Shown: piece by piece, positions 10,692-29,947 of the stretch
Layout: each line of letters opens with the position of its first letter
How positions within the stretch are numbered: position 1 is the first letter of the stretch
Assembly: GCA_021773395.1 (NCBI GenBank)
Contig: JAJFKB010000002.1
Coordinates: 372,001 to 436,000 of the forward strand
DNA from: Gammaproteobacteria bacterium
Lineage (GTDB): Bacteria; Pseudomonadota; Gammaproteobacteria; Pseudomonadales; IMCC2047
Direction of reading: 5' to 3'
Length of the DNA stretch: 64,000 bases
Notes under the pieces: generated by a model
Told to the model about the DNA's origin: nothing
Seen by the model: the letters and a program-made list of their open reading frames with translations, nothing else
The model's database searches: none
Position numbers and translations under genes: made by a program

Positions 10692-12815
10692 CTATCGATA
10701 GGGCCGTACAGTATCTCCTGTCTCCTGAGCGTATCTCACTCTATCCAGGATATACTCTCTGACATTTTCCACATCACCCTCATCGAGTTCTGCTTTGAAA
10801 GAAACCATTCCCCTGCTTTCGAGTACGCCGCCCAACACCACTGACTTCCACGCCTCCGGAGAGCCGATGAACCCGGAAAAACGAAGATCGGGAACTACGC
10901 CACCACCAATCGCGCCAGCCCCATGGCAAACCACGCAATATCTGTCGTACACCTCATATCCCTTGCGGATTGATTCAGCATCTCCGGTTGACTTGTGAGC
11001 CTGCAGTTGCAATGGAGGTCTGTCATCAGCAGGGAGTTGTGCTTTACCGCCCATTTTGAAAACCAGCAATCGACTTTTGTTGACAGCGTAACCCAAGGCA
11101 GAGTCCTGAGTAAGCACACCCGTCATCAACGGCATGATCCCTCCCCAGCCAACATTTACTGCCACATATTGTTCGCCACCAATCTTGTAGCTGATCGGCG
11201 CCGCGACAATGCCACCCTGGGCATTGAATCGCCACAGCAAGCTTCCATCTTTAGCGTTATAAGCATTGAAATAGCCGGTCGCAGCACCCTGGAATACCAG
11301 GTCACCTTCGGTAGAGAGCACACCTCCGTTCCATACTCCCGGGTAATTTACTCGCCAGATATCTTTTCCGGTGGTCAGATCTTTTGCCACCAATGAACCG
11401 AAGGTGGCCTCTTTCACTGCTTTGATAACAGCTGGGTCATCCGGTAATCCAGCAGCCTTAGTGTCTACACCCAGATTAACTGCCAGCCTTGACGGAGATT
11501 GCTCGTTCTCAGCCAGATACGGAAATGCGCTTTCCTGAGTGGGCAAGAAAAGAACGTTTGTTTTCGGATTTAAAGACATCGAATGCCAGTTGTGTCCGCC
11601 CATCCAGGAGGGCTTAACCAATGCAGGCTTGCCCGTCTTCCAGTACTCAGCCTCCGGATTAACCACGGGACGACCAGACTCCAAATCGACATGGGAGGCC
11701 CAGGTGACATCCACAAATTTGTCCGCTGAAATCAGTTTGCCGTTGGTGCGATCAATAATGTACAGAAAGCCATTTTTGGGCGCCTGTATAGCAACCTTGG
11801 TTTGTTTCCCATCGATGTCCAGCTCTGCCAACATAATGGGCTGAGTAGCGGTATAGTCCCAGGCTTCTCCTGGAGTAGTCTGGTAGTGCCACTTGTACTC
11901 GCCCGAATCTGCATCTACGCTCACGATGGAGGAGAGAAACAGGTTGTCTCCGCCGCCAGGAGAGCGGATATTAGGGTTCCAGGGGGAGCCATTTCCGACA
12001 CCAAAAAGAAGACTGTTCGTATCAGGATCATAAACAATTGAATCCCAGGCAGTCCCGCCTCTATCAATCTGAGTCTCTGTTTCCGACCATGTCTCTCTCA
12101 TCATCTCCAGCGGCTCAACACCATCAGTATCACCACTTAATGGAGGGACCGTATAAAAGCGCCATACCCGCTTTCCGGTCTTGGCATCATATGCCGACAC
12201 ATAGCCTTGCACACCGTATTCAGCACCGCCATTTCCAATATAGACCTTGCCTCTTGCCACTCTGGGCGCACCGGTAATGGTGTAATTCTTGGACGTATCA
12301 ACAGTATTAACGCTCCACAATTTAGCACCAGATTTTGCGTCTAATGCGATCAGCCTGCCATCCAGTGTGGCCTGAAAAACCGTACCATCCGAGTAGGCCA
12401 ACCCCCTTGTAACAGCGCCACAGCAACCTTTGACGCCGGTGGATTTAGGCACCTTGGGATCGAACTCCCACAACACCTCTCCTGTGGTCGCCGACAGCGC
12501 GTGTACGTGGTTCCATGCCGAAGTAGTGTAAACAACCCCGCCGATCATCAAGGGGGTAGCTTCCTGACCGCGGCTCTCCGGCAAATCGAAGTACCAGGCG
12601 AGGCTCAGATTAGCCACGTTCATATTGTTGATATCCGACAACGGTGAGTAGCGTTGCTCATAGTAATCGTTCCCATGAAGCTTCCACTCAACAACATCCA
12701 CTGAAACCGCCCCGTCATTGTCAGATGGCTGACCAAAGGCGTTGAACACTGAGCAGATGGATACCAGCCCGGCTACTATATATGGCATCGAAACAGATCT
12801 ATTTATTATTCTCAT
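10692..12815 (-). CDS. PQQ-dependent quinohemoprotein alcohol dehydrogenase
   Basis: A periplasmic type II alcohol dehydrogenase of 707 residues: an eight-bladed PQQ propeller followed by a cytochrome c domain. After a signal peptide (MRIINRSVSMPYIVAGLVSI) the propeller shows the vicinal-cysteine motif KGCCGAV, GNGSPWNPNIRSPGGGDN and W-docking repeats. The C-terminal domain has the haem motif CVVCH (Cys627, Cys630, His631) and a likely axial Met670 in ESRGMVSF. Such enzymes oxidise primary or secondary alcohols and pass electrons to the respiratory chain. It is the last enzyme gene downstream of alkB and the rubredoxins, where it would oxidise the alcohol made by AlkB or one reaching the periplasm. 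Substrate is not determined. Confidence 0.92.
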   Translation of the reverse strand: MRIINRSVSMPYIVAGLVSICSVFNAFGQPSDNDGAVSVDVVEWKLHGNDYYEQRYSPLSDINNMNVANLSLAWYFDLPESRGQEATPLMIGGVVYTTSAWNHVHALSATTGEVLWEFDPKVPKSTGVKGCCGAVTRGLAYSDGTVFQATLDGRLIALDAKSGAKLWSVNTVDTSKNYTITGAPRVARGKVYIGNGGAEYGVQGYVSAYDAKTGKRVWRFYTVPPLSGDTDGVEPLEMMRETWSETETQIDRGGTAWDSIVYDPDTNSLLFGVGNGSPWNPNIRSPGGGDNLFLSSIVSVDADSGEYKWHYQTTPGEAWDYTATQPIMLAELDIDGKQTKVAIQAPKNGFLYIIDRTNGKLISADKFVDVTWASHVDLESGRPVVNPEAEYWKTGKPALVKPSWMGGHNWHSMSLNPKTNVLFLPTQESAFPYLAENEQSPSRLAVNLGVDTKAAGLPDDPAVIKAVKEATFGSLVAKDLTTGKDIWRVNYPGVWNGGVLSTEGDLVFQGAATGYFNAYNAKDGSLLWRFNAQGGIVAAPISYKIGGEQYVAVNVGWGGIMPLMTGVLTQDSALGYAVNKSRLLVFKMGGKAQLPADDRPPLQLQAHKSTGDAESIRKGYEVYDRYCVVCHGAGAIGGGVVPDLRFSGFIGSPEAWKSVVLGGVLESRGMVSFKAELDEGDVENVREYILDRVRYAQETGDTVRPYR

Positions 12816-12827
12816 GATATTAGTCGC

Positions 12828-12992
12828 TCACAATGCTTCCATAAAATCAGATTTAGGCGCACTACAGTCGTAGCACGTCCACGAATCCGGAATATCTTCC
12901 CACTTAGTACCCGGAGGTATATTGTCGTTGGGAAGGCCTTCGCCTTCATCGTAGATAAATCCACATACAATACATTCGTATTTCTTAGACAT
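12828..12992 (-). CDS. Rubredoxin (second, AlkG2-like)
   Basis: A 54-residue iron protein too short for ordinary gene calling. The four iron ligands are in CIVCGFIYDEGEG and CYDCSAPKSDF; the middle reads PPGTKWEDIPDSW, typical of rubredoxins. The second site lacks the extra arginine that marks electron-transfer-incompetent AlkG1 forms, so this is probably the functional donor to AlkB. It starts 11 nt after the first rubredoxin and ends 12 nt before the PQQ dehydrogenase start, within the alkB operon. No rubredoxin reductase gene is in the window, so that must be supplied from elsewhere. Confidence 0.88.
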   Translation of the reverse strand: MSKKYECIVCGFIYDEGEGLPNDNIPPGTKWEDIPDSWTCYDCSAPKSDFMEAL

Positions 12993-13003
12993 TGCTCTTA
13001 TAC

Positions 13004-13177
13004 CTACTTCTCATCTTCTATTTTTATAAAATCCACTTTATCCCGGACTGAACAAGAGGGACACGACCAATCCTCAGGAATAGCGACCCATTCAGTACCG
13101 GCATCAAAACCTTCGAACTCATCTCCTTGCTGTTCGTTGTAGATGTATCCACAACAAGGACATTGATACTTACTCAT
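13004..13177 (-). CDS. Rubredoxin (first, overlapping alkB)
   Basis: A 57-residue rubredoxin starting MSKYQCPCCGYIYNEQQGDE and closing its iron site with CPSCSVRDKVDF. I start it at 13177, where ATG overlaps the alkB stop (ATGAGTAAG), so translation is coupled. The open frame extends 15 codons further but into alkB. The charged SVRDK segment after the second CxxC, in place of the usual GxxK, recalls the AlkG1/AlkF class, which often cannot transfer electrons to AlkB. A pair of rubredoxins next to alkB mirrors the alkFG arrangement of the GPo1 alk operon. Confidence 0.88.
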   Translation of the reverse strand: MSKYQCPCCGYIYNEQQGDEFEGFDAGTEWVAIPEDWSCPSCSVRDKVDFIKIEDEK

Positions 13178-14360
13178 GGTTTGCCACCTCTGCTGCGCCA
13201 TATTTTTTATAAAGCTCTTCACGCTTGGAAGGTTCTACATTGACTTTGGTTATATCACCGCCGTACTGCTCTAAAACGCGATGATCCATAACTTTACGCC
13301 ACAAAAACGGGAAATACGCCAATGTAAAACACCCGGCATAACCGCTAGGAAGCTCGGGCGCATCATCGCTTCGCAACACCTGATAGCGTCGCGTTGGACG
13401 AGAATGATGATCAGAATGGCGCTGCAAATGAAACGTCATCAGATTTGAAAAGATGTGATCGGCATTCCAGGAGTGTTCCGGGCGCGCTCTTTCATAGCGA
13501 CCATCGGGTTGTTTCTGACGCAACAATCCGTAGTGCTCAATGTAGTTGGATGATGACAGGAACTGCCAACCCCACAGAGTGGAGATAATAATGAAAGGTA
13601 CTACACTCCATCCCAATAGATATATAGCGGCACCGCACATCAGAAAGGTGACGTAAAAAGACTGCAGAATCTGGTTTTCAAAGCTGAAAATGGATTTGTG
13701 TTTTCTTCTCAGGCGCTCATTTTCATCACGAAATGCCCGATAAAACGCGCCCGGAATCTCTCTCAGAATAAATTTATAAAGCGTCTCGCCCATCCTGGCA
13801 GATGCAGGGTCTTCAGGGGTTGCTACATCTTTATGGTGACCGCGATTATGTTCCGCTGAAAAGTGACCGTACGCAGGTACCGCCAAAACCAACTTTGCAA
13901 GATTCTTCTCGAGGGTGTTGGTTTTGTGCCCCAGCTCATGTCCTACTACAAGCGCCAAACCGTTTGTCAGTGCTACACCGAGCGTCACACCAAGGTAATC
14001 CCATGATCCTTGAGCGTGGGTGGCGACCCACCAGGCACAATAGATCCAGGTTACGTAGAAAAAAGGAACCGACAAAAATGTAAGCCATTTATAATATGGG
14101 TCATTTTCGATTTCGTCCGACCAGGCGTCCGAGTAATTGCGATCATCCCGTCCCAGCACAAAATCTCCGACAGGGATAAACACATACCACAAAATAGGCG
14201 TTAACCAGGCATACAGAGCATTAGCTGTAGTTTGATAAAGCTGCACACCAATTATTGGCGTGATGGTAATCAGTAACGGTAACCACCATAAATAGCGGAA
14301 ATTGTCTTTGGTTTTTAGTCTTTCAGTGGATTTTGAGAGAGTATCATCTGCCATGTTCAT
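13170..14360 (-). CDS. alkB: Alkane 1-monooxygenase AlkB, GPo1-like
   Basis: An integral-membrane di-iron hydroxylase of 396 residues. All histidine boxes are present: HELGHK (residues 141-146), EHNRGHHKDVATPEDP, NYIEHYGL and LQRHSDHHSRPTRRYQ. Six hydrophobic segments fit the family. Trp58 in TPILWYVFIP aligns with Trp55 of the Pseudomonas putida GPo1 enzyme, the residue known to restrict that enzyme to medium-chain substrates. GPo1 AlkB also epoxidises terminal alkenes. AGG lies 8 nt before the second in-frame ATG (14354), so the first two residues may not be translated. Downstream lie two rubredoxins and a PQQ dehydrogenase; upstream lies a direct repeat typical of AraC-type activators. Its setting in a styrene-oxide-isomerase cluster raises the possibility that the natural substrate is an alkene or arylalkene. 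Confidence 0.95.
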   Translation of the reverse strand: MNMADDTLSKSTERLKTKDNFRYLWWLPLLITITPIIGVQLYQTTANALYAWLTPILWYVFIPVGDFVLGRDDRNYSDAWSDEIENDPYYKWLTFLSVPFFYVTWIYCAWWVATHAQGSWDYLGVTLGVALTNGLALVVGHELGHKTNTLEKNLAKLVLAVPAYGHFSAEHNRGHHKDVATPEDPASARMGETLYKFILREIPGAFYRAFRDENERLRRKHKSIFSFENQILQSFYVTFLMCGAAIYLLGWSVVPFIIISTLWGWQFLSSSNYIEHYGLLRQKQPDGRYERARPEHSWNADHIFSNLMTFHLQRHSDHHSRPTRRYQVLRSDDAPELPSGYAGCFTLAYFPFLWRKVMDHRVLEQYGGDITKVNVEPSKREELYKKYGAAEVANHE

Positions 14361-15236
14361 TACCTATTTTTTATAAAAATAATAGAGGTTAAGAAAATAG
14401 TCTCTTTAACGAGACAGATCTATCACGTTTGCGAACAGGCTATCCATTTTGCGAAGATATTTTTTCGGCGCGTCAGTTTAACTTCGAGTTGAACAGATAA
14501 AAGTGGAATTTTCTGGCGACCTTTATTCAAAGAGCCGTTATGAAAAAAAACATACATTGGGGCCAAACCAGTCTGAATCTAAAGGTGGCATATACGGTCA
14601 TTAAATAGAGCTAATTCTTTAATGAAAATAACGGGTAATCCCGCATGTGTTTATTTTGTTTTTTTGAAGGTGAAGGGATTACAAATTAACCGGGGACGGG
14701 CGGCGACGAGAGATGAATCTTGGCGTTAATAGAAATCCGTATCCCTCTCGGCTATGGCCAAAGCAGGAAGACTACAACGTTCACCAAGTTGCGCGGGAAA
14801 ATCTTACCAAACGGCTACGCAGCCCAACCCCTCGTGTAGTAACACGAGAGTGGGTAGTTCGTCTGCTGATCCGGGATACCGCAGAAACTTCAGATTCGCT
14901 CCATCAATATGGAGAGCACCCGACTCCGCCGTGGAATTATCGTACATCAGTATCGCTTTAACTCCCTCACGCAAGAATTGTCATGTTCGAAATTATATCC
15001 ATTGCCATACTGCTGTGCATACTCATCAAAGGAAAACGCTACGAGAACCCTGTTCCTTTATGATAATAGGTAATATTTACTGGGTTAATATCGCCTGCCT
15101 GGTCACGACACCTAAGCAGGCACAGTCAGAGAAGAGCAGGCTCAACGAACGGGTGTACCTTACCATCGCCCAGGCACATACTTGATATACAACTGGCCGA
15201 GATTGATGGATGGTAACCGCCTCTAGTTGCGCCCTC
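14361..15236. other. 876-nt intergenic region between the monooxygenase gene and alkB
   Basis: Apart from the direct repeat next to alkB I see no gene here. Plus-strand open frames at 14713-14961 and 14754-15185 have no family resemblance, no good ribosome site and odd composition (many Ser, Arg, Thr). A short hairpin, CTCGTGT-agta-ACACGAG, lies at about 14831-14848. The length implies that alkB has its own promoter and that this may once have held another gene. Confidence 0.4.
14420..14455 (-). promoter_or_regulatory. 16-bp direct repeat upstream of alkB, probable AraC-type activator site
   Basis: On the minus strand TTCGCAAAATGGATAG (14440-14455) is repeated as TTCGCAAACGTGATAG (14420-14435), 13 of 16 bases matching and 20 bp from start to start. 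Two direct half-sites about two helical turns apart are the usual binding pattern of AraC/XylS regulators. The repeat ends about 60 nt before the alkB start. Two AraC-family genes lie in the cluster. Confidence 0.55.
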
Positions 15237-16628
15237 TCACGCTTTCTTTGACGCCAACAGAGCTTCCATTTTTGGGACTGCTTGCTCCATCAGGGCGTTC
15301 ATCGCCTCAATATTCTTGGCCGTTTCTGGATCATCAAAATCCAGTAATGGGCTAAAGAGGTCGATACGTGACGCGTTGATCCATTTCACAACAGCCGGCT
15401 CAGTAAGCCAGACCAGCATATTTCTGGAATTGCCGATAAAGCAGCGAAGGTAGTCCTCATCTCTGTAGGGCATCGGAACCGGCTGTGTCAGCTCATTTTT
15501 CCTGTCCTCATCCGCTGCGACATTAGCCTCTACATTGCCGATAAAGCCAGCACTATAAACTTGTTGGCACATCCGTACGTTTTGTAGAGTGATTGTATTT
15601 CCGTCGAACACTTTCGTCAGTGGCATTTGAGGAAGTCCGTCCGCCGAGCAATCGACAAATACTGCATTTGGCGGTGTTTTGTGCGTGCCAGCGGAACATA
15701 TCATCTCTGTAGGCGACACTGACTCAAGATAGCCTTTACGTACAACATTTTTAATCCGGCGTAACTGCTCGAGCTCCACCGGAGTAAACGTGGCACAACG
15801 CCAACGGGTGGGTTTCACGGAGGAATCCATCCTCTTCACCAGCTCCTTGGACTCCAGCAGATCGAAAAAATTATCGTAGTCGGACGCTTCAAGTGCCGTA
15901 GTGAGCGCTCCAATTGCATACTGGGTACAAGGACCGCTGAATCTGCGATCTGGCTCGACGGTGAATCGGTCAAACATCCACGCGTCGGATGGCATGATCC
16001 AGGTGATGTTATCCGGGTTGCATCCATTACTTAGCAAGAAGAGGCAGGCGTCCATGCCGGTTTTTCCGGAACCCACGATAACGATGTTCTCGTACTTTGG
16101 CGCAACATTGGGTAACTCATTCACCGGTACCACTACTGAACCACCGCTGCTGCTATAGGTTGGCGGCCGAGTCGCGGGAACGGTGACATTCATGTACGTA
16201 CCATTGACGATCTTGCGTACCTGGAATTCATATTCAGTGCCGGAAACCAAATTTACAGCCGTGCCGTCTTCACGGTACTCGCACATTGGCAAATAGGTGA
16301 CTCTTCCTGAGGTGAGGAAACGCCTGCGCATCACGTTATCAAAATAGGCAAGACATTCACCACCGCTCGCCAGTTCATAACAGCCTTTGTTGAAACCGAT
16401 CTCGTCTACACGGTCACCACCGAGCTCAGTAGAGTTAACGCCGTAACACATCGAAGTCTGATGTAACCGCACAAATGGATAGGCGTAGTTCCAGTGTCCG
16501 CCTGGCTTAAAATTCTTGTCGACCATAACGATAGTAGCGTCGGTATGGGTAAGAATCTCATCGGCAAAGGCCATACCCATGGCGCCCGCACCGATAATCA
16601 AATAATCAGCTTTAATCTTGGAAATCAT
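15237..16628 (-). CDS. Flavin-containing monooxygenase-like FAD/NAD(P)-binding protein
   Basis: A 463-residue flavoprotein. The FAD Rossmann motif GAGAMG is at residues 13-18, followed by VDKNFKPGGHWNYAYPFVRL, a pattern seen in FMO/pyridine-nucleotide-disulfide-like proteins. A second dinucleotide motif, VIVGSGKTGMDA, lies near residue 185. It is not of the StyA type: it lacks that family's N-terminal sequence. The classic FMO fingerprint FxGxxxHxxxW is not evident either. It follows the DUF1329 gene on the same strand with a 99-nt gap. Related proteins occur near hydrocarbon and steroid genes, but no reaction can be assigned from sequence; oxygenation of a lipophilic intermediate is an inference. 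Confidence 0.7.
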   Translation of the reverse strand: MISKIKADYLIIGAGAMGMAFADEILTHTDATIVMVDKNFKPGGHWNYAYPFVRLHQTSMCYGVNSTELGGDRVDEIGFNKGCYELASGGECLAYFDNVMRRRFLTSGRVTYLPMCEYREDGTAVNLVSGTEYEFQVRKIVNGTYMNVTVPATRPPTYSSSGGSVVVPVNELPNVAPKYENIVIVGSGKTGMDACLFLLSNGCNPDNITWIMPSDAWMFDRFTVEPDRRFSGPCTQYAIGALTTALEASDYDNFFDLLESKELVKRMDSSVKPTRWRCATFTPVELEQLRRIKNVVRKGYLESVSPTEMICSAGTHKTPPNAVFVDCSADGLPQMPLTKVFDGNTITLQNVRMCQQVYSAGFIGNVEANVAADEDRKNELTQPVPMPYRDEDYLRCFIGNSRNMLVWLTEPAVVKWINASRIDLFSPLLDFDDPETAKNIEAMNALMEQAVPKMEALLASKKA

Positions 16629-16727
16629 TCAAATACTCCCGAATAGTAGATGGACTCAACAGCAGAGTTGATCCGGTAGAAGATGATTAGGAAACGCATC
16701 CGCTACTGAATCCATCCGGGTTAACTA

Positions 16728-18152
16728 TCACTCATAGTCCCGCAACAGATCGATATCGAACATTTCTTCCGTAACACGCTCTTCACGATCTTCCCAAACT
16801 GCGTCGGCAAAGAAGCCCCCAGTACGTTTGGTGGTGTGGTTATTGACGATTGCGAATCTCCACTGGGCATCACCCTCTGTAGGACGGAATGCGCGGCTAT
16901 CTTCCCAGGTGCGATAGACATTACCTCTTGGATCCCAGGTGGTGTGATACTGCATGTAGTACATCTCTTTATCTATCCAGGTGCGTCGTTTGGAGTACTG
17001 ATATTTTCCGGTCTTGTCAATAATGTCCAGAATCCATACCGGGCGAAGCTCCAACTCAAGGGAGGCGAAGTTACATTCGTCGTCGGTAAGCTTGCCGGGA
17101 TCATAGACATAACCGGTTTCAGGGATTGTGAGAATGAAGGTTTCACCGACCAGCTTGTACTCAAACGCATTGATGTCAGTTTTGCCCCAGTTGGCTCTCC
17201 AATCATCCCAAGTAATATCGAGACCCGAAGCCAATGGATCCTGGGCATCGGATCCCGCCATCACTCGTGTACGGCGCAGGCTTGGAATAAATACTTTGAA
17301 GTCATCTGCCTTACTATTGTCGGCATAGCGCTGACGAACACCTGCCAATCCACGAATATCAAAAGGCTCTTTAAAGAAAATCGAACCGCCCTCGATAAAC
17401 TCTTCTTTTCCGGAAACGTCACCTTCAGGCCCGACATTTTGTCGATTGTGATAGTGCCACCACCAGAGATCTGCCTTGTATTGCGCATCGAGCTTGCTAT
17501 CGGAAGTACACGCTCTGAAATGGATAGGCTCAAAGTTTAGCGTATCAGTGTTAACAGAGTGGGCAACGTATGACCAATTCAGCTCGAGACCATTCTTCGG
17601 ATGCAGAAAGGGTACCGAGGTGGCACCAGCGCCGGATAACAACGCGTAACTGCCATCTGGGTAGACCAGTTCACCCTTATCGTTAATCTTGATCTCTATC
17701 CCCTTCTCTTTCAGCTCCTTGGTACCCGCCAAATACCCCTTGTGCATATAGTAGGTATTACTGGGCACGATGGTGATCTCACCAATATTTCCCCAGCTGG
17801 AGGTGAGTTGGCTGTACGCTTCAGGAACCATGTACTCTTTCAACCAGGGATATTGCGAAATATTATCCTTGGTAATTTTCAGTCCCGGCTTCAGCTCTTC
17901 GGGAAGCTGAGCTTTACCCATCAAGTCGTAAGCATCGTACCCACGGAGATTGCGCCACTCCTCTGCGAGCTTGATAGCTTCCGGTTTGGAGATTTCCTCA
18001 ACCCACTTCTGATGGTCAGGGTTTCCTGATTGCTGGGCGAATTCTTTCCACGCCTCCAGTGCGCGATTTGTGTCTGCGCCGAATGCTACCGACGACGCTA
18101 GCGCGGTAATAAGTAACAATCCCTTTCTTGCTCTATATGTCTTCATGTCCAA
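16728..18152 (-). CDS. DUF1329 outer-membrane-associated protein
   Basis: A 474-residue secreted protein with a signal peptide (MDMKTYRARKGLLLITALAS, cleaved near AFGAD). The body has the DUF1329 pattern: YPDGSYALLSGAGATSVPFL, a repeated MAGSDAQDPLASGLDITWDD, and a closing section with RRTWIDKEMYYMQYHTTWDP. Family members have a beta-rich fold like the lipid-carrier LolA/LolB and nearly always neighbour a DUF1302 barrel, as here (21 nt apart). The pair is often found beside genes for steroid, alkane or terpene breakdown. Handling of a hydrophobic substrate at the outer membrane is the likely role, inferred from context. Confidence 0.88.
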   Translation of the reverse strand: MDMKTYRARKGLLLITALASSVAFGADTNRALEAWKEFAQQSGNPDHQKWVEEISKPEAIKLAEEWRNLRGYDAYDLMGKAQLPEELKPGLKITKDNISQYPWLKEYMVPEAYSQLTSSWGNIGEITIVPSNTYYMHKGYLAGTKELKEKGIEIKINDKGELVYPDGSYALLSGAGATSVPFLHPKNGLELNWSYVAHSVNTDTLNFEPIHFRACTSDSKLDAQYKADLWWWHYHNRQNVGPEGDVSGKEEFIEGGSIFFKEPFDIRGLAGVRQRYADNSKADDFKVFIPSLRRTRVMAGSDAQDPLASGLDITWDDWRANWGKTDINAFEYKLVGETFILTIPETGYVYDPGKLTDDECNFASLELELRPVWILDIIDKTGKYQYSKRRTWIDKEMYYMQYHTTWDPRGNVYRTWEDSRAFRPTEGDAQWRFAIVNNHTTKRTGGFFADAVWEDREERVTEEMFDIDLLRDYE

Positions 18153-18173
18153 TACCTCGAAATATTTATAACG

Positions 18174-20102
18174 TTAAAATTGGTAGGTTAGAGAGAGTTC
18201 GATGTAATCTTTGTCATCAAAGATACCTATGGGTGCCGACTCCTTATCGCCGGAGAAATGCATAACCTCGATCCTTGGGCGTAAGTTATCTCCGAAATAG
18301 TTGAAATCGATCCTTTGTCTGTAGGAAACGCCATCATTGTCGAAATCGCTAATTAGCAGACCTTCGAGAGTAATACGCTCATGATCGAGCTTCATATCCC
18401 AAAGAAACGTCATGTAATTTTGATTTTCTGCCACTTCAACAAGACCGTACGGACCCTGTGCCATCAGGTCTTTGGAGTCTTCAGTGTGAATATTAAACAG
18501 TTGGAAACTGGTGAATACCGACTTGTTTTGGGACTCCCACCCGGGGATCCACAGTGGGTAATCAAAACCGATCATCAATGATGTAACGTCACGATTAACA
18601 ACTGACACCGAGGGAGATACAAGGTTGGCAACAGCTCCCTTTTCCAGCTGATCAGGTACAAACGGATTTTCTACGACCAGCCGGTTGAATGGCTTATCGA
18701 ACTCATAAGTGAATTCAGTTCGAATGGTTGGACCGGTATTTTTCGGCCCAAACGTCAACTTATCACTCATATCCCGAGCAAAGCTGAAGCCAATCACCTT
18801 CTGGCGCTGGGTGTAGTCAAACAGAATATCTGCAGTGACGGAACATTCCACCCCGCCTGCGAGGTTTGTGGGATCGTTCACTGGATCGTTACATACCCCT
18901 GCGGTTAGTGCAGTCAACGGGCTAACAGTCAACGGCCCTTTCCCAGCGGCACCACGAAGGTATGGTATATATCCTGACGGCACTCCCCCAGCCGCAGGCT
19001 GGCCCGGCGCGGCCAGATTCGGCAGCCATATTGCAGCCAACAGCGTCTGGTGATCAACAGGAACATTAGCCAGGGAAGAAGCTGAATCATTTACGCCTGA
19101 ACCTACATGCACAACGCCCTCACCGAGATTCATGACGGGAAGGTCCTGATATCCATAAAATGCATTCAGCGTCATTTCTCCGCCCAGAGCGCTGAACTTC
19201 AGTCTTGCACCCACTTCAGGGTCGTCAAACTCAAAGTCATCTTTTTCTTTGTCGATCAGCCTTCCACCAAACCCTACCGCTCCGAGTCCTGACTGGTGAG
19301 GAAAGCCCATATCAACAAGATCAGGCCAGGGCAACCCGAACATTCCACCGTCAGTACCCACACCGGGGGTCGGATTGTTGACGACAACACGGCTATGGCG
19401 GATCTCGGGAATAATATTGAGTTCAAACGTTGGGCGCTCCATACCAAGTGCTTCGAATGGCCCATCGAGACCCATCCTGCCTAAATCAAAATCCATTGAA
19501 ACCATCCAGGCCGGCAACCTTGTCTCATCGGAATTCTTATAAACGAAACGGTCTCGCAACTCCTGTGCGTGAAGAATATCCAGCAATCGCAAGCCATCCG
19601 ATTGCCCCCACCCACGCTGAAACTTACCTGCTTTTATAGAGTATCGTCTCTTTTTATCGCGATACTTGATGGCAAGCTCGCGAATCATGTCATCATTAAA
19701 ATTATCAAACTTGTCGACTTCGTCGTTTTTTGCACAAAACTCCCGCGCGGCAAGATTACAATTCGACGTCCCATGCTGAAAACTACCGCTGGGAAATGGA
19801 GGGCCCGCATAGAGATTTTTCAGCCCCCCTTCCGGTTCAACCCAGTCGGGATCGTTCCACATACCGCGATACCACAAATTTCCGGTGAGGGTAATTTGAC
19901 TATTAGGGCGGTAACTTGCATTGATTTCGGCCAGATAATGCATAGGGCCTTCATCGCTACCATCTTCAAGGTCGTACAAGTGCATATAGGATTGCTTGAC
20001 ACGACCATGGACGCTCAGCCCTTTGATATCAAAATCAGCGGCATTTGCATAACTCGACGCGACCACCCCTAGGGTCATGCATGCTAAAAGTTTTGTTTTC
20101 AT
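18174..20102 (-). CDS. DUF1302 outer-membrane beta-barrel protein
   Basis: A 642-residue protein with a signal peptide ending SSYANA-ADF, then ADFDIKGLSVHGRVKQSYMH and alternating polar/aromatic strands up to the terminal aromatic YIELSLTYQF, which is a normal outer-membrane insertion signal. These features and the length fit DUF1302. It contains several glycine- and proline-rich loops, for example LPNLAAPGQPAAGGVPSGYI. It sits between the DUF1329 gene and the MMPL transporter, all on the minus strand with gaps of 21-31 nt. A channel or receptor for the hydrophobic growth substrate is plausible; nothing in the sequence fixes which. Confidence 0.87.
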   Translation of the reverse strand: MKTKLLACMTLGVVASSYANAADFDIKGLSVHGRVKQSYMHLYDLEDGSDEGPMHYLAEINASYRPNSQITLTGNLWYRGMWNDPDWVEPEGGLKNLYAGPPFPSGSFQHGTSNCNLAAREFCAKNDEVDKFDNFNDDMIRELAIKYRDKKRRYSIKAGKFQRGWGQSDGLRLLDILHAQELRDRFVYKNSDETRLPAWMVSMDFDLGRMGLDGPFEALGMERPTFELNIIPEIRHSRVVVNNPTPGVGTDGGMFGLPWPDLVDMGFPHQSGLGAVGFGGRLIDKEKDDFEFDDPEVGARLKFSALGGEMTLNAFYGYQDLPVMNLGEGVVHVGSGVNDSASSLANVPVDHQTLLAAIWLPNLAAPGQPAAGGVPSGYIPYLRGAAGKGPLTVSPLTALTAGVCNDPVNDPTNLAGGVECSVTADILFDYTQRQKVIGFSFARDMSDKLTFGPKNTGPTIRTEFTYEFDKPFNRLVVENPFVPDQLEKGAVANLVSPSVSVVNRDVTSLMIGFDYPLWIPGWESQNKSVFTSFQLFNIHTEDSKDLMAQGPYGLVEVAENQNYMTFLWDMKLDHERITLEGLLISDFDNDGVSYRQRIDFNYFGDNLRPRIEVMHFSGDKESAPIGIFDDKDYIELSLTYQF

Positions 20103-20133
20103 CTATATTCTCCAGTGTGGATTTATTATTTGG

Positions 20134-22491
20134 TCAGATGGCAACCGCAGATTGCCCCGATTCGTCCGTTGAACGATTGTCCTGATCTCGAAATATTTCT
20201 TTGGGTTTGAGCGCACACAGCGCAGCAGGAACAAACAAAAGTGAACCGAGCATATTCATGAACAGCACGAGAGAGAGGAGCATGCTCATCTCCGCATGAA
20301 AGCGAAGGTCGGAAAAGAAAATCCAGGGAATTAAAGGCGCAGTCATCGATAGTGCAGTTATGACAATTGCATTTCCGGACGTCATCAAGGCTCTATGCAT
20401 TGCGTCGATCATATCCCCACACTTGCGGTACTCTTCCTTGATACGGTCGATCATATAGATGCCATAATCGACTCCCAGGCCCACTCCCAATGCTGCCAGA
20501 GGTAGACTACTGATGTTCAAACCCACGCCTTTCCACGCCATGAACGCATAAGTGATAGCGTTGGCAGCCGCCAGACTAACGAGAAGAATGATTGCAACTT
20601 TGACAGATCTGTATAAAGCGATGACACAGAAGAAAATGACGATCGTAATAGCGATCATAATGTTCACATTAGTCTTCTGTAGTTCAGTATTCAGTGCTTC
20701 AGTCAGGCCAACCTGACCACCTGAAAACAGGAATTCGGCAGAAGAGCCTCCAATTGCAAATTCCTTAAAGAATTGCTTGAGACGCTGAGAAAGCTTGTCG
20801 ATCGTCTGAGCGCTATGATCCTCCAGATAGAAGGAAATATTGCCAATCTCCCACTCATTATTGGTAAACGCGGCGAAGTCTCCCGGTTCACCTCTAGAGC
20901 GGAACATATAGATATCGAAACCAATTTCTTCTTCCGTATCAGGCAAGATCGCATATGAAGGGTCACCTTCATACAATACGGAATTGACCGATTTGATGAT
21001 TGGAACAAGGCTTTGCGCAGGCCGAGCCTCTGATACATGTTCGTAGATATAGCGGTCAAGCAATTCGATTTCATGAAAAACCGCAGGGTCTAACATGGTG
21101 TTAGCGTCACCCTCAACATAAACCTGCATCACATCTGTACCCAGAAATGAATACCGAGTATTGATCGATTCAGAATCAGAATTAAAGCGTGAATCAGGCC
21201 ATAGAATTGAATTTCCCTTGGTATCGCCAATCGTAAGATTTTGAGAATAGAAAAGCCCCAATCCAAGTAAAAGAACAACCACACCTATTACCACATACTT
21301 GTGGTCTTCAATGCTGACAACCTTGGTCCAGAAATGGTTGAGATAGGAAGAACCCGTTCGATACTTTTTCGGCACAGGTAGCAGCGCCATTGCCGCCGAT
21401 GCAAAAATCAGCGAAGGTCCCACTGATAACAACCACAAGCTACATATAATTGCGAGACTTTTGATGCTGGGTATGGCCGCCAACGCCAATACGGCGAACC
21501 CTGCAGCGTCCGTCACTATCGCGCCGGTACTCGGCACAAGTACACCCGCGAGCGCATTTTTGGTGACATTGCGGTTGTTTTGGGCGGGTTCTCCCCCATC
21601 TGAGAGATGATCCAGTATCCTGGTGGTGAGCTGAACACCGTGGGACAAAACAATTGCAAAGATAAATCCAGGAAGCAGTATCAGGAGTGGATCCAGGTTA
21701 TAGGATACAAACCCCATGGCGCCCAATCCCCAGATAGACGCAACAGTGGCTGTAAATAGCGGTACAAATACACCAATCCAGCATCTGAAATAGAAATACA
21801 GGATTAAGATAATAATCGCTAGGGAGCAGAGACCGATTACCAACACGCTATCAAGCGCTCGGTAGATTTCACCGAGCAATATCGGTCGGCCCACGTAATT
21901 AATTGAAACATTGTCGCCTTCATATTGCGCTCTGATTTCATCAAAGAAGGCAAGCGTCTCTTCGAAATCAATACCCTCCTTGAAATCCGCAAGGATGATT
22001 GCTGATGTTTCGTCATCAGAGACCTGAAAACCACGATACTGGGCGTTGACAGCCTTCCTTAATTCAGCCATTTCCTCAGCATTTTGCGGCAGGTTGGGCC
22101 ATAGAAGCGCGGTGACTTCAACACGGCCACCGCCGCCTTTAATGACTTTGGTTTTTCTTAAAACAAGTGACTGGTTAAGGTGTCTTTGGGTATCTTCATG
22201 ATAATAAATATCCTCCGCAATCCTTTTGTATATTGTCAGAAATTCAGTATCGTAAATTGTTCCATTGTTATTTTTTACTTCTACCAACGTGAGATTTGCA
22301 CCACCGAACTGCTCACTGAAACGCTTGAACAACTCGACATTTTTCGAGTCAGAGGGATACATCTCTTCGAGTACGACATTTACCGAGAGTCCTTTACTTG
22401 CGTAATACAAAGGGACCAGAGTAATCGCAAGCAACACAACAACCACATATACCGCTTTTTCTGTTACAAAACGCGCTAATTTATCAGTCAT
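20134..22491 (-). CDS. RND/MMPL-family lipid-type transporter
   Basis: A 785-residue inner-membrane protein with about 12 transmembrane segments in two halves, each with a large periplasmic loop. Typical stretches are GLGAMGFVSYNLDPLLILLP followed by GFIFAIVLSHGVQLTTRILD in the first half, and LAALGVGLGVDYGIYMIDRI in the second. It is shorter than drug-efflux RND pumps and resembles the MMPL/hopanoid-type exporters that move lipids. Its start overlaps the stop of the YCF48-like gene by 8 nt. In many proteobacteria MMPL, YCF48-like, DUF1302 and DUF1329 genes travel together near hydrocarbon or steroid genes, which suggests one envelope-spanning system for hydrophobic molecules. Confidence 0.9.
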   Translation of the reverse strand: MTDKLARFVTEKAVYVVVVLLAITLVPLYYASKGLSVNVVLEEMYPSDSKNVELFKRFSEQFGGANLTLVEVKNNNGTIYDTEFLTIYKRIAEDIYYHEDTQRHLNQSLVLRKTKVIKGGGGRVEVTALLWPNLPQNAEEMAELRKAVNAQYRGFQVSDDETSAIILADFKEGIDFEETLAFFDEIRAQYEGDNVSINYVGRPILLGEIYRALDSVLVIGLCSLAIIILILYFYFRCWIGVFVPLFTATVASIWGLGAMGFVSYNLDPLLILLPGFIFAIVLSHGVQLTTRILDHLSDGGEPAQNNRNVTKNALAGVLVPSTGAIVTDAAGFAVLALAAIPSIKSLAIICSLWLLSVGPSLIFASAAMALLPVPKKYRTGSSYLNHFWTKVVSIEDHKYVVIGVVVLLLGLGLFYSQNLTIGDTKGNSILWPDSRFNSDSESINTRYSFLGTDVMQVYVEGDANTMLDPAVFHEIELLDRYIYEHVSEARPAQSLVPIIKSVNSVLYEGDPSYAILPDTEEEIGFDIYMFRSRGEPGDFAAFTNNEWEIGNISFYLEDHSAQTIDKLSQRLKQFFKEFAIGGSSAEFLFSGGQVGLTEALNTELQKTNVNIMIAITIVIFFCVIALYRSVKVAIILLVSLAAANAITYAFMAWKGVGLNISSLPLAALGVGLGVDYGIYMIDRIKEEYRKCGDMIDAMHRALMTSGNAIVITALSMTAPLIPWIFFSDLRFHAEMSMLLSLVLFMNMLGSLLFVPAALCALKPKEIFRDQDNRSTDESGQSAVAI

Positions 22492-23683
22492 TATTCTTAT
22501 CCCAATTAGTGCTTTCTACCTTGATGGTCTCAGGAATCGGACCAGCAACCGTCAGCTTTGGCCAATATTTTCTAGTGGCTACTTCGCCCTGAACAACAAG
22601 CCCTCTGATTCCCACCGCCATGAACTTTCCAGTCCCATTAGCGGCCACACCGCCAAACCACATATATTCAACAGGCAGATTGTCGTCGCTGGCGAATGGG
22701 GCTGTGCCCTTACCATCATATCCCAGGATAAGACCTCGTCCGGCGATAACCGACTTTCCATCAGGTAGAAAATCAACATCGAAAAAGTGCTCTGATGAGG
22801 AAGTGTCAAACTGATCTAAAATGTACTCTACCTCTCCCAAAGAGACGTTAATCGGCTGGGGTATATATTCCTTTTTCCTTAATCTGGCTTTACGTTTTTC
22901 CTTCGCTTCTTCCGCTTCGGCCTGTTGCCTCAAAATATCTACAATCGCCTGTCGCTGTTCCTCGGTAGCTAAAGTTAGCCTCGCAGCATTTCCATCCAAC
23001 CCCACGATCACCAACTCACCCTGGACACCATCAATTGCAGTCCAGGTAACCTCAGTTTCTACTGGCGTGGTGGTCCATAGTTCGCCACCATTTTCCGTAT
23101 GAACAATGACACCAAATTCTCCGACAGCCACTGCCCTGTCAGCAGAGAGAGCGACCACACCGTGCAATCGCGGCAAGTCACGCCCGGTATACCCTGTAAT
23201 TCGCTGGGGTTTCCAGCTGGCTCCACCATCTTTGGTATTCAGTATGGTTGCGCCATGACCAACGGCCCAGCCATTTTCAGTGTCAGAAAATGATATATCT
23301 CGCAAGTAAACGTCATCGGAGGGACGCTGTTGGATCCAGGTTTCTCCTCCGTTCTCCGAGTGGAATACAGAACCCCGATGACCTACTGCCCAGGCATGTC
23401 CCTGATCGACAAACGAAACCCTTCTGATAAGCTCAGATGTGCCTATATAACTTAAGGCCCAGGACTCACCACCATCTGAAGTCCTCAACACACGGCCTGA
23501 TTCCCCCGCTATGATTCCGTGCTTTTGGTCAGAAAATTCGATAGCGAACAGGTTATCCGGCCATAGGCGAATCACACCATTTGCTTCGGACTGCTCTTTA
23601 TCATCTGCCACGACGAGGTGGGACCAAAATGTTGCCTGGAGCACCAGAGCCATAGTCAGCACCGTCTGCCTGATTACACTCAT
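22484..23683 (-). CDS. YCF48/BNR-repeat periplasmic protein
   Basis: A seven-bladed propeller-like protein built of repeats such as GGESWALSYIG, ENGGETWIQQRPS, KDGGASWKPQRI and ENGGELWTTTPV, the YCF48/photosystem-II-stability signature. A lysine/arginine-rich insert (EEAKEKRKARLRKK) lies near residue 265. I start it at 23683 (MSVIRQTVLTMALVLQATFW), which gives a clean signal peptide and has AAGGTGG 8 nt upstream. An alternative ATG at 23719 also has AAGGTGG, and a GTG at 23752 overlaps the isomerase stop. It is translationally coupled to the MMPL gene and is probably an accessory or scaffold of that transporter. Confidence 0.85.
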   Translation of the reverse strand: MSVIRQTVLTMALVLQATFWSHLVVADDKEQSEANGVIRLWPDNLFAIEFSDQKHGIIAGESGRVLRTSDGGESWALSYIGTSELIRRVSFVDQGHAWAVGHRGSVFHSENGGETWIQQRPSDDVYLRDISFSDTENGWAVGHGATILNTKDGGASWKPQRITGYTGRDLPRLHGVVALSADRAVAVGEFGVIVHTENGGELWTTTPVETEVTWTAIDGVQGELVIVGLDGNAARLTLATEEQRQAIVDILRQQAEAEEAKEKRKARLRKKEYIPQPINVSLGEVEYILDQFDTSSSEHFFDVDFLPDGKSVIAGRGLILGYDGKGTAPFASDDNLPVEYMWFGGVAANGTGKFMAVGIRGLVVQGEVATRKYWPKLTVAGPIPETIKVESTNWDKNND

Positions 23684-23748
23684 GCTAGTCGCCACCTTGT
23701 TATTGCCCTCAAAAAACATGGATTCCACCTTCTTGTCTTGTTTTAAAA

Positions 23749-24216
23749 TCACTTTTGCGCAATGGCTTTAACGCCAATAACGAAAAGCGCACCGATGGCG
23801 AGGACTCCAAAAAGATAGGCTGGCCCCAATGCGATAACACTCACAATATCCCCCGCCCCGAATACATTGTCGCCAAAACTCAGTCCGCGATTGGGGGTCA
23901 GATTGCCAAAGAAGTAAAAGATCACATTACTCCACCCGTCACCCACGATAATCCAGCCGAGAATTCGTTCAGCTCTTGCTGAAAACGCTAACGTGGGCAG
24001 GACAAAGGCAACGGCGATCACCATCATGCCGTTTAGAGCAGGACCGGTATGTGCCTTCCTCCACCCTTCGGCCGTGCCGGGAACATCAAAATTCAGAATA
24101 AAACCGGGGTATATTTCGAACCCGCCGAGGAGATGCATCCAATACCCAAGGCCGAAAAGCAGGGTGCAAAGGATCATTAATATTCCATGGCCTGCCATAG
24201 CTTTTTGAAAATTCAT
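23749..24216 (-). CDS. styC: Styrene-oxide isomerase (StyC family)
   Basis: An integral-membrane enzyme of 155 residues with four hydrophobic helices. It converts aryl or alkyl epoxides to aldehydes by a Meinwald rearrangement. The resemblance to Pseudomonas StyC is strong along its length: MAGHGILMILCTLLFG, GWRKAHTGPALNGMMVIAVA, DGWSNVIFYFFGN, TPNRGLSFGDN and APAYLFGV-like GPAYLFGVLAIGAL. His56, Asn62, Asp93 and Tyr101 fall at the positions I recall as His58, Asn64, Asp95 and Tyr103 of the haem-dependent Pseudomonas enzyme. I start at ATG 24216, with GGTGA five bases upstream; a GTG at 24225 is possible. It lies 45 nt after an aldehyde dehydrogenase gene. No styA or styB is present. Confidence 0.93.
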   Translation of the reverse strand: MNFQKAMAGHGILMILCTLLFGLGYWMHLLGGFEIYPGFILNFDVPGTAEGWRKAHTGPALNGMMVIAVAFVLPTLAFSARAERILGWIIVGDGWSNVIFYFFGNLTPNRGLSFGDNVFGAGDIVSVIALGPAYLFGVLAIGALFVIGVKAIAQK

Positions 24217-24261
24217 GTCTGTCACCGTTCTAGTTATTTAGTTGGTGCTATCAATTAGCTT

Positions 24262-25683
24262 TTACTTTTTAGCAATCTGTACTGTCTGTAAAACAGTAAA
24301 CTCTTTTAATCCATCCGTACCGAATTCAACGCCAAATCCGGATTCCTTGACACCTCCAAAAGGCGCATTGGGTTGCAGCGCGGCATGATTATTAACCCAT
24401 GCAGTACCACACTCCAGTCGGGTTGCAATGTGAGTTGCTCTTTCCGTATTCGTTGACCAAACCGAACCACCCAGTCCCACAGAAGTTGCATTTGCTTTTT
24501 CAAGCACCTCTTCGATATCACTGAAACGGAGAATCGGGAGAATGGGGCCAAAAGGTTCTTCTGTTACAAGACGGGCATCTTCAGGAACATCGACTGCAAT
24601 GGTGACGGGGAAGAAATATCCTGGCCCTTTTCCAGGCTCACCCCCCGAGAGAAAACGTGCTCCTCGAGCTTTTGCATCTTCAGCAATAGCACACACTTTC
24701 TCGAACTGCGCCCGGTTTTGAATGGGCCCAAAATCGACTTCAGTTTCACCGTTACCACTCACCATGTTATTAGCGATTTCAGCAAGTGAATTACATAACT
24801 CGTCGTAAACCGACTCGTGAACATAGAGGCGCTTGATTGCGGCACAGGTTTGCCCATTGTTGATCATTGCTGCCGCAAAGATTTTCGGAGCTATCTTTTC
24901 TACATCCACATCAGGCAACACTATTGCAGCGTCGTTACCACCCAACTCGAGGGTTAATCTCTTGAGGTTTGAGGAGGCATCCTGCATTACCTTTTTACCG
25001 GTTTGTGTAGAGCCAGTAAAAACTATCTTGTCGATTCCCTTATGACGGGCCATGGCAGCACCAAGCGCCCCATCACCCGTAACAACATTGAAAACACCGC
25101 TTGGCAATATTTCGTTAATCATTTCTGCTGCACGCATAACCGCAAGGGGTGTGTACTCTGACGGCTTGATAACAACTGTGTTTCCAGCTCTCAAGGCAGG
25201 CACTGTGTGCCATATAGCGATCAGCAGCGGATAATTCCAAGGGGTAATGGAACCCACAACACCCAGTGGTTTGCGATGGATTTCAATACGGGCATCGTCG
25301 TTATCCTGAATAACTTCTACGGGAAGAGACATATCCGCTGTAGCATGTGACCAGACAACAGCACCGCCTATTTCGAACCGTGCCCCCAGGCCGGCAAAGC
25401 CCTTGAATGGCTTACCTTGTTCCAGGGTAACCAATCTTGCTAGCTCTTCGGCGTTATCATCAAAGGCCTGACCAATGGCATGTATAAGGCGTGCTCGCTC
25501 TTCTTCTCCAGTGGATGACCATGACGGAAATGCTTTTCGGGCTGCCTCTACTGCATCATCCAAATCTTTTTCCGAAGCCATCGGACATTTGGCAATGACA
25601 GTTTCGTTGGCAGGATTAATGACATCAAACGTTTCAACGGTAGAGACTTTTTTTCCGTTAATGATCATTTTAAAATCAAACAT
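24262..25683 (-). CDS. NAD(P)-dependent aldehyde dehydrogenase, probable arylacetaldehyde dehydrogenase
   Basis: A complete ALDH of 473 residues. Seen are the substrate-channel asparagine in GSITPWNYPLLIA, the cofactor motif FTGSTQTGKKVMQ, the catalytic glutamate in LELGGND and the catalytic cysteine in NNGQTCAAIKRL, and the C-terminal PFGGVKESGFGVEFGTDGL. It directly precedes the styrene-oxide isomerase, so the aldehyde made by the isomerase is the expected substrate, giving phenylacetate or an analogue, as StyD does. An IS66 element is inserted about 100 nt upstream of its start and may have replaced or blocked its promoter. Specificity cannot be judged from sequence alone. Confidence 0.9.
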   Translation of the reverse strand: MFDFKMIINGKKVSTVETFDVINPANETVIAKCPMASEKDLDDAVEAARKAFPSWSSTGEEERARLIHAIGQAFDDNAEELARLVTLEQGKPFKGFAGLGARFEIGGAVVWSHATADMSLPVEVIQDNDDARIEIHRKPLGVVGSITPWNYPLLIAIWHTVPALRAGNTVVIKPSEYTPLAVMRAAEMINEILPSGVFNVVTGDGALGAAMARHKGIDKIVFTGSTQTGKKVMQDASSNLKRLTLELGGNDAAIVLPDVDVEKIAPKIFAAAMINNGQTCAAIKRLYVHESVYDELCNSLAEIANNMVSGNGETEVDFGPIQNRAQFEKVCAIAEDAKARGARFLSGGEPGKGPGYFFPVTIAVDVPEDARLVTEEPFGPILPILRFSDIEEVLEKANATSVGLGGSVWSTNTERATHIATRLECGTAWVNNHAALQPNAPFGGVKESGFGVEFGTDGLKEFTVLQTVQIAKK

Positions 25684-25875: not shown

Positions 25876-26211
25876 ATGGAAACTTTCGTATCGGCCCTCC
25901 CTGCCCCTAGGCGTCGTCGCCGACATTCACCCGAGTTCAAGGCCGAAGTCCTGAAGGCTTGCGCTGAGCCTGGCAACACCATTGCCGGCGTTGCCCAGCG
26001 TTATGGGGTCAATGCCAATCTGGTACATAAGTGGCGTAAATCCGTGCCAGGAAGTCCGTCGGACTTTGTCAGGCTGCCTGACCCGGATGGTGCTGAGAGC
26101 AAGTCCGATGATGACACGGTCCGCATTGAACTGCCCGGCAACGTTATCGTGCACTGGCCGATCGATCGCATGGCCGATGCCCTGGTCTGGTTAAAGGCGA
26201 TGAGACCGTGA
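25876..26211 (+). CDS. tnpA: IS66 TnpA accessory protein
   Basis: A 111-residue protein with an N-terminal helix-turn-helix: RRRRRHSPEFKAEVLKACAE, GNTIAGVAQRYGVNANLVHK and WRKS. This matches the OrfA protein of IS66 elements, thought to bind DNA or assist transposition. It overlaps tnpB by 4 nt (ATGA-type junction), as in other family members. The inverted repeat just upstream may be its operator. The gene appears intact. Confidence 0.88.
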   Translation: METFVSALPAPRRRRRHSPEFKAEVLKACAEPGNTIAGVAQRYGVNANLVHKWRKSVPGSPSDFVRLPDPDGAESKSDDDTVRIELPGNVIVHWPIDRMADALVWLKAMRP

Positions 26212-26543: not shown

Positions 26544-26615
26544 ATTTGGGTAAATTTACCGAAAATGCGACTGTAAACCGTCGCACTATTTGCGCTGATG
26601 TGGCACAGTTTAGCC

Positions 26616-29934: not shown

Positions 29935-29947
29935 CACCGACACTCCT

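Follow-up and report, generated by a model that had tools for sequence, protein, structure and literature searches.

A StyA-less styrene-oxide isomerase island, with a distinct clade of AlkB as candidate epoxidase

We describe here a gene island in which a styrene-oxide isomerase, StyC, is encoded near the membrane di-iron monooxygenase AlkB, two rubredoxins, an orphan flavoprotein and phenylacetate (paa) genes, in a genome where no StyA was found. The island lies in a 64,000-nucleotide stretch of contig JAJFKB010000002.1 (positions 372,001 to 436,000), hereafter the window, from a gammaproteobacterial assembly (GCA_021773395.1; GTDB lineage Pseudomonadales, IMCC2047). What is new here is that the set of AlkB, flavoprotein and StyC recurs in six StyA-less genomes. 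In the consulted parts of PMC5874493 and PMC13209321, the two-component flavoprotein StyAB carries out the first step of the StyC pathway. Our preferred reading, which we hold tentatively and at somewhat less than even confidence, is that AlkB would be the epoxidase of a StyA-less gene set that acts on phenyl compounds with a two-carbon side chain and ends in phenylacetyl-CoA. We infer the substrates and reactions, AlkB epoxidation above all, from gene identities, the negative search for StyA and the recurrence of the set, which are themselves observed. In full-text literature searches no title or abstract opening told of an AlkB-StyC pathway; most subscription journals lie outside those searches, and this is no proof of novelty.

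A styrene-oxide isomerase in a genome without detected StyA

All features of the island are on the minus strand. The StyC protein, encoded at 23749-24225, scores 243.5 bits with the NCBIfam StyC equivalog model NF045734, above the cut-off of 150. In alignment it shares 66% identity with its counterpart from Pseudomonas VLB120, and among solved structures it matches that of StyC, 8pnu, at E 2.9e-66. Its His59, Asn65, Asp96, Asn100 and Tyr104 correspond to the published H58, N64, D95, N99 and Y103, so that all five catalytic residues are kept; H58 is the haem ligand, in the consulted part of PMC11374702, which also gives the roles of the other four. We take the protein to be a true styrene-oxide isomerase, with predicted activity. 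It lies 36 bp from an aldehyde dehydrogenase (ALDH) gene (24262-25683; Pfam Aldedh, E 3.9e-151), as had been claimed in the original prediction, made from the letters of this DNA, of a StyC-like isomerase with its key residues directly after an ALDH. The ALDH, a candidate phenylacetaldehyde dehydrogenase, passes none of the 25 NCBIfam models shown (the StyD model gives 406 bits against a cut-off of 850). Among the loci fetched it is closest to the ALDHs of sty loci, with 56% identity to that of a Marinibacterium styrene plasmid and 50-53% to those of six others (L011, L019, L020, L021, L034 and L036).

A search of the window's own genome (98.89% complete) with the StyA substrate domain found nothing even at a threshold of E 10, nor did one with the VLB120 StyA protein at E up to 0.001. 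We thus reject a StyA concealed elsewhere in the genome, none having been found by either search. The StyB search, which allowed E up to 0.1, was confined to the window and another 140 kb of this genome and gave no match there. The predicted absence of styA agrees with both genome searches and that of styB with the DNA searched; a styAB pair elsewhere in the genome, which would have told against the prediction, was looked for through StyA and not found.

To place this locus among other StyCs, we scanned a collection of 84,980 species genomes with a six-row StyC alignment. Because the scan reports only relatives carrying one of two short peptide patterns, the 23 loci that it returned are no census. 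In 20 of the 23, StyA is present in the fetched DNA. The other three are those of Zhongshania sp. BJYM1 (L014), a Panacagrimonas metagenome-assembled genome or MAG (L030), and L033, where StyC is present as a second copy on a short contig of a Rhodococcus MAG; for L030 and L033 the absence of StyA is judged from fetched DNA and not from the whole genome. Adjacent StyA, StyB and StyC genes were seen in Bordetella genomosp. 12, Hydrocarboniphaga effusa and two Nevskia (L018, L017, L023 and L026). Among viral contigs, 46 stretches fitted a pattern and none was confirmed.

The AlkB, flavoprotein and StyC set recurs in six genomes

A second survey covered 391 genomes of the window's order. A StyC-superfamily match at E up to 1e-10 occurs in 24 of them, and nine StyCs pass the cut-off of the StyC model. 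Seven of these nine exceed 230 bits (the window, five Zhongshania and Alloalcanivorax G567), while the remaining two, from Zhongshania G596 and G690, score 174.7 and 154.2 bits; in these, H58, N64, N99 and Y103 have their counterparts and D95 has none. StyA was found in one of the 15 genomes tested, G567. This leaves eight genomes with a StyC over the cut-off and no StyA found, of which six carry the AlkB and flavoprotein set and G596 and G690 do not. The original prediction had called for a search for styC-alkB neighbourhoods without styA; such genomes exist, six of the 391, with G596 and G690 counting on the other side.

Membership of the set is sharply bounded. Exactly five genomes, all Zhongshania, encode an AlkB 71-77% identical to that of the window, and the next match is at 51%; with a threshold of E 1e-100, 72 of the 391 carry an AlkB of some kind. 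Relatives of the window flavoprotein, at 70-72%, are in the same five, with the next at 47% (29 genomes have a match at E up to 1e-20). The six genomes with this AlkB clade are exactly the six with a StyC above 230 bits and no StyA. When 12 Zhongshania were searched for both AlkB and flavoprotein, five had both and seven had neither, and in those seven no StyC reaches 200 bits. Among 369 genomes of the class the AlkB clade was found in the window's own genome only (next 54%). We reject a chance neighbourhood, as six genomes from two families carry the set. In three sampled genomes of the window's family (one of the same genus; 83-95% complete), no StyC, AlkB or flavoprotein was found at the thresholds used. 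The absence of all three genes from these relatives fits gain of the island by transfer.

In Zhongshania G556 and G576 a unit of AlkB, two rubredoxins, a pyrroloquinoline quinone (PQQ) dehydrogenase and an AraC-type regulator stands about 9 kb away from StyC, with PaaK on one side and the paa genes on the other; in G655 and G707 its distance from StyC is about 30 kb, and the paa genes adjoin it; and in BJYM1 (G742) StyC, PaaK and the paa genes share contig C22, with the AlkB unit on another contig. PaaK adjoins StyC in all five set-bearing Zhongshania. Matches to PaaA, PaaC and PaaE, through which the Zhongshania paa genes were traced (PaaB and PaaD were viewed in G556 only), adjoin the AlkB unit in G556, G576, G655 and G707 and stand on StyC's contig in G742. 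Other neighbours are not orthologous between the window and Zhongshania: the StyC-adjacent ALDHs are 32-35% identical, and the transport components named RND, YCF48 and DUF1329 are 21-30% identical. We take the conserved core to be StyC, the flavoprotein, the AlkB-rubredoxins-PQQ dehydrogenase-AraC unit and the paa genes.

A possible second pairing of both enzyme types is seen in Zhongshania G596 (L081:5123-7253), where a StyC-like gene that has diverged (38%) and an AlkB-superfamily gene (26%) are convergent and about 530 bp apart.

In a StyC tree of 35 rows (those under 130 bits were dropped), the StyA-less group was defined as the six StyC rows above 230 bits, the rows of G596, L030 and L033 standing outside it. 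The group is not one clade in the best tree, which needs three changes, and 0% of 200 bootstrap trees need only one. An approximately unbiased (AU) test, run on all 35 rows including the L081 copy identical to long-branch row L043, does not reject one clade of StyA-less StyCs (p 0.185; 0.361 without the window). Because of this test we dropped the claim of independent origins for StyA-less StyC.

A distinct clade of AlkB

AlkB (13170-14360; Pfam FA_desaturase) has the histidine motifs HELGHK, EHNxGHH and RHSDHH of an AlkB-type sequence and aligns with chain 8sbb at E 1.7e-130. We take 8sbb to be FtAlkB, as the five vestibule residues named in the consulted part of PMC10110569 fall in place. 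On this alignment, by which positions are counted, four of the five are the same in the window (W62, L141, L274 and L318 as W58, L135, L268 and L312), and the fifth, L315, is T309. The position of W62 is the counterpart of GPo1 W55, again in the consulted part of PMC10110569, and the predicted match of Trp58 to Trp55 is thereby borne out.

In a tree of 56 rows, from which rows with an aligned stretch under about 330 residues were dropped and which does not include GPo1 AlkB, the StyC-linked AlkBs form one clade of eight rows with support of 100/99. The earlier label of "GPo1-like" is loose for a protein in a clade of its own. Eight clade members were compared with 47 other AlkBs, leaving out the long-branch row L120 and the window genome's own duplicates. 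V138-V139 precede HELGHK in all eight; among the others the counterparts are mostly N (42/47 at the first position), then T or L. S168-A169 precede the EHN motif in all eight, where the others mostly have F, C or Y (5/47 also have S), then V or I. D301 is likewise found in 8/8, and 45 of the 47 have N. The small residues beside the iron motifs could make space for an aromatic ring.

Rubredoxin 1 (13004-13177; CPCCG...CPSCS) overlaps alkB by 8 bp and is followed by rubredoxin 2 (12828-12992; CIVCG...CYDCS). The second motif of both is CXXCS, which does not fit the CXXCG pattern of AlkG2, as given in the part of PMC8918992 that we consulted. The PQQ-dependent alcohol dehydrogenase (10692-12815) has a C-terminal cytochrome c domain (Cytochrome_CBB3) and passes TIGR03075, the methanol/ethanol family (585.5 bits, cut-off 480). 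A PQQ dehydrogenase follows AlkB in all six set-bearing genomes and in one of the two MAGs that carry AlkB-clade members. The AraC-type regulator gene after it (9310-10304) is interrupted: a 359-aa relative, intact in Zhongshania G556, aligns to it in two different frames, which join near 9795, and the N-terminal piece is the open reading frame (ORF) at 9753-10304.

Two gene units and an orphan flavoprotein

Every gene named in the original prediction for the minus-strand run at 10692-25683 is present in its place, including alkB, the rubredoxins and the PQQ dehydrogenase. The single run is nevertheless two units split by 876 bp. The first consists of seven genes: ALDH; StyC; a YCF48/BNR-type protein (22484-23752; Pfam PSII_BNR) that overlaps StyC by 4 bp; a resistance-nodulation-division (RND) transporter of the MMPL/HAE3 kind (20134-22491; Pfam MMPL; TIGR00921 at 153 bits, below its cut-off of 351.9); a DUF1302 protein (18174-20102; Pfam DUF1302); a DUF1329 (LolA-like) protein (16728-18152; Pfam DUF1329); and the flavoprotein (15237-16628). 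With gaps of -8 to 99 bp from ALDH to flavoprotein, the seven genes look like a single transcript. The four transport genes resemble the exporter AmeABCD, with the DUF1302, DUF1329 and RND proteins like AmeA, AmeB and AmeD and the YCF48 protein in AmeC's place, a likeness noted without direct comparison of the sequences; AmeABCD is the apolar monoterpene efflux system of Castellaniella defragrans in the consulted part of PMC6394551.

The second unit, alkB-rub-rub-PQQ dehydrogenase, has gaps of -8 to 12 bp and follows the 876-bp intergenic gap (14361-15236). In the gap is a promoter-like match at 15019-14992 (10 of 12), among the two best of the scan, but the scanned region holds fewer promoter-like sites than its shuffles (15 versus 23.3), and the support for a promoter is weak. 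A fragment in the gap resembles, by eye, the start of an alpha/beta hydrolase.

The flavoprotein ends the StyC operon in the window, with a 99-bp gap before it. It carries two GxGxxG dinucleotide-binding motifs, at residues 13 and 186, reaches the threshold of no curated family and gives weak Rossmann matches only; the gene product predicted as a flavin monooxygenase is there, and that name is a guess. As a relative of StyA it was rejected, because it has only a 34-column Rossmann match to StyA and no Smoa_sbd domain. StyC-linked flavoproteins form one clade (9 of 33 tree rows, support 100/100), and all nine rows come from StyC islands. The wider family is not tied to StyC: its contexts in Rhizobium and on a Natronosalvus plasmid look unrelated, and a Streptomyces record carries no annotation.

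In the five set-bearing Zhongshania, a second StyC-superfamily protein is encoded near the flavoprotein, within about 0.75 kb in four genomes and 3.8 kb away in G556 (L122:7476-7967, L090:3036-3533, L126:14072-14581, L092:3025-3570 and L127:11577-12068). In the four included in the alignment (all but L092) the haem histidine is present, and N64, D95, N99 and Y103 are lost; this is perhaps a haem protein with another function.

Phenylacetate genes

Absent from the original prediction were paaBCDE and a 5'-truncated paaA at 29948-33158. PaaE, the phenylacetyl-CoA epoxidase reductase (29948-31039), passes TIGR02160 (433 bits, cut-off 420.8). PaaD (31049-31576) was named by position and by eye and is 55% identical to the correspondingly placed ORF of Zhongshania G556; PaaC (31583-32329) is 61% identical to its counterpart there and 49% to the annotated PaaC of L010; PaaB (32341-32625) was assigned from its position and from a visual comparison with the Zhongshania ORF. 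The truncated PaaA (32637-33158) has 173 aa, covers profile positions 141-289 and reaches 242 bits with TIGR02156, below the cut-off of 280. Elsewhere in this genome, contig 26 has an intact paaA with PaaC and PaaE matches, and the next stretch of that contig has a PaaK of 72% identity. With ALDH, PaaK and the paa genes present, genes exist for the steps from phenylacetaldehyde to phenylacetyl-CoA and for its epoxidation. Beside paaE are genes for an EthD-family protein (29617-29961; TIGR02118 at 47.8 bits, cut-off 30.5) and an AraC-type regulator (28415-29377) that is nearest to FeaR (140 bits, below the cut-off of 199).

A proposed pathway and its alternatives

Hypothetically, the island would serve two kinds of side chain. 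Styrene, with its vinyl side chain, would be converted to the epoxide by AlkB with its own rubredoxins, and the epoxide to phenylacetaldehyde by the membrane-bound haem protein StyC. In parallel, the saturated side chain of ethylbenzene would be hydroxylated by AlkB to 2-phenylethanol, which the PQQ dehydrogenase would oxidize to phenylacetaldehyde. The ALDH would then yield phenylacetate, to be carried onward via PaaK and PaaABCDE, while the RND/DUF1302/DUF1329/YCF48 set may move or expel solvent. The simplest single account is one oxygenase, AlkB, whose two kinds of product, an epoxide and a primary alcohol, would each have a follow-up enzyme in the island. In favor of this reading also count the joint recurrence of the AlkB clade and a strong StyC in StyA-less genomes, the invariant residues of the clade, and the paa genes and FeaR-like regulator of the island. 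AlkBs are reported as alkene epoxidisers, one fused AlkB being the stated exception in the consulted part of PMC8918992, and AlkB alkene epoxidation is also found in the part consulted of PMC13209321.

We further suggest, with rather more doubt than conviction, that the AlkB clade may be a natural aryl-alkene epoxidase that replaces StyAB in at least two bacterial families, that the epoxide could be handed within the membrane to the haem isomerase, and that S168 A169 and the VV pair would mark an altered pocket. If this were true, aryl alkenes would enter metabolism by an iron membrane enzyme too, surveys of styrene degradation that use styA as marker would be misdirected, and a membrane-to-membrane cascade of epoxidation and Meinwald rearrangement would be available for synthesis. 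In addition, AlkB substrate choice can be tested with this clade, in which nature has altered residues that flank the iron motifs.

Several observations weigh against AlkB as the source of the epoxide. The five Zhongshania belong to one genus, and the co-occurrence counts represent few independent events; the AU test leaves room for a single StyA-less StyC clade. In G596 and G690 a StyC clears the cut-off and no StyA was found, yet neither the AlkB clade nor the flavoprotein is present. The alkB gene forms its own unit, which in G556 and G576 runs in the opposite direction to styC, and in the window the operon mate of StyC is the flavoprotein, not AlkB. The flavoprotein is as closely linked, being in the same six genomes and in the StyC operon. 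The PQQ dehydrogenase points to an alcohol product, and in the literature found here no paper shows AlkB acting on styrene. In addition, two MAGs (L025; L024 with L067) have AlkB-clade members of 64-66% identity about 4 and 8 kb upstream of a StyA-StyB-StyC-AraC-flavoprotein locus. The AlkB clade is not confined to StyAB-less loci, which cuts against our reading and makes a simple swap of AlkB for StyAB doubtful. Of the original proposal of an AlkB epoxide route, the StyA-less StyC route stands and AlkB remains a serious candidate, set against an equally linked flavoprotein and the AlkBs near StyABC in these MAGs. The route was also said to be distinct from the flavin-dependent styrene pathway and from terminal hydroxylation; no StyA was found, in keeping with the former, but the PQQ dehydrogenase expects an alcohol, and hydroxylation may run alongside.

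These same MAGs lend some weight to an alternative that we consider unlikely, namely that AlkB only hydroxylates saturated side chains (ethylbenzene and longer phenylalkanes), with the PQQ dehydrogenase and ALDH finishing the oxidation, and that StyC either acts on styrene oxide that comes from the surroundings or survives from a StyABC operon since lost. Near StyABC the AlkB would be needless as an epoxidase, and the MAGs demonstrate that AlkB, flavoprotein and StyABC can share a locus from which StyAB could go. The fixed alkB-rub-rub-PQQ unit in six genomes also counts for this alternative. A leftover StyC should decay, however, whereas the StyC of the window keeps five catalytic residues and is co-operonic with ALDH, and the AlkB clade is kept in six genomes with a strong StyC and no StyA.

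About as unlikely, in our judgment, is that the flavoprotein at 15237-16628 makes the epoxide for StyC, leaving AlkB and the PQQ dehydrogenase as a separate hydroxylation branch. Beyond its place as last gene of the StyC operon after a 99-bp gap and its presence in the same six genomes as the AlkB clade, its own clade comes wholly from StyC islands, including that of MAG L027, which has StyABC and the flavoprotein and a best AlkB of just 47%. That the flavoprotein accompanies StyAB in three MAGs cuts the other way, since it is needless there as an epoxidase. Nor does it have more than a 34-column Rossmann stretch in common with StyA or pass any curated family, and in Zhongshania it lies near a second StyC-superfamily protein without N64, D95, N99 and Y103 (in the four aligned).

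A very improbable source of the epoxide is another enzyme elsewhere in the genome, such as a P450 or soluble di-iron monooxygenase: all six genomes would need to share it outside the island, and none was seen by eye in the listed 48 kb of G556, no genome-wide search for either type having been made. Slightly less probable still is a non-aromatic substrate (terminal alkenes or monoterpenes), for which the likeness of the RND/DUF1302/DUF1329 set to AmeABCD (PMC6394551) and the suitability of Trp58 for medium chains (PMC10110569; both in the parts consulted) could be cited; the paa genes in the islands make aromatic side chains such as styrene and ethylbenzene likelier than 1-alkenes or limonene, the island has a FeaR-like regulator, and transport parts only 21-30% identical between the window and Zhongshania say little about a shared substrate.

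Flanking regions

Between ALDH and the paa side are IS66-family transposase genes (26598-27530 by Pfam; the whole element covers about 25876-28053 by eye), the large transposase being split over two frames. Farther out, a full-length antiphage HyoA (1588.7 bits, cut-off 1200) is encoded with a Schlafen/AlbA_2 protein at 33344-39003 on the minus strand; PADLOC detected neither. Part of HyoA, 961 bp long, recurs as a remnant at 8143-9103 (region 8001-9134, minus strand) with 86.6% identity, which places the AlkB-StyC-paa island between two direct repeats. By eye, RND efflux genes with outer-membrane and adaptor genes occupy 814-6646, and a heavy-metal block with a CusA-type RND, a copper P-type ATPase and a multicopper oxidase occupies 42344-63015. 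The first 7 kb of the window have 62% G+C, compared with 46-49% in most of the remainder, and are likely of other origin.

Comparison with known systems

With AmeABCD of Castellaniella defragrans (PMC6394551, in the consulted part) the island has in common DUF1302 and DUF1329 proteins, a further periplasmic protein and an HAE3-type RND transporter, a likeness drawn without direct sequence comparison. The island set differs in that it adjoins StyC and AlkB genes. In Pseudomonas putida, the Ped route leads from 2-phenylethanol towards phenylacetate by a PQQ dehydrogenase and an ALDH. The island likewise has a PQQ dehydrogenase and an ALDH.

The medium-chain alkane hydroxylase system AlkBGT (GPo1, FtAlkB) has the same AlkB family, histidine motifs, chain-length tryptophan and rubredoxins. 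In contrast, the island AlkB belongs to its own clade with unusual residues beside the iron motifs, is set among StyC and paa genes, and is followed by a PQQ dehydrogenase; AlkJ of GPo1 is a different enzyme.

The StyABCD loci of VLB120 plasmid pSTY, Rhodococcus opacus 1CP, and the Phaeobacter and Marinibacterium plasmids resemble the island in having a StyC with its catalytic residues, an ALDH nearby in most records, and phenylacetate genes nearby in three of the four viewed. Where these loci have StyAB, the island, in a genome without a detected StyA, has an AlkB-rubredoxin-PQQ dehydrogenase unit and a flavoprotein instead.

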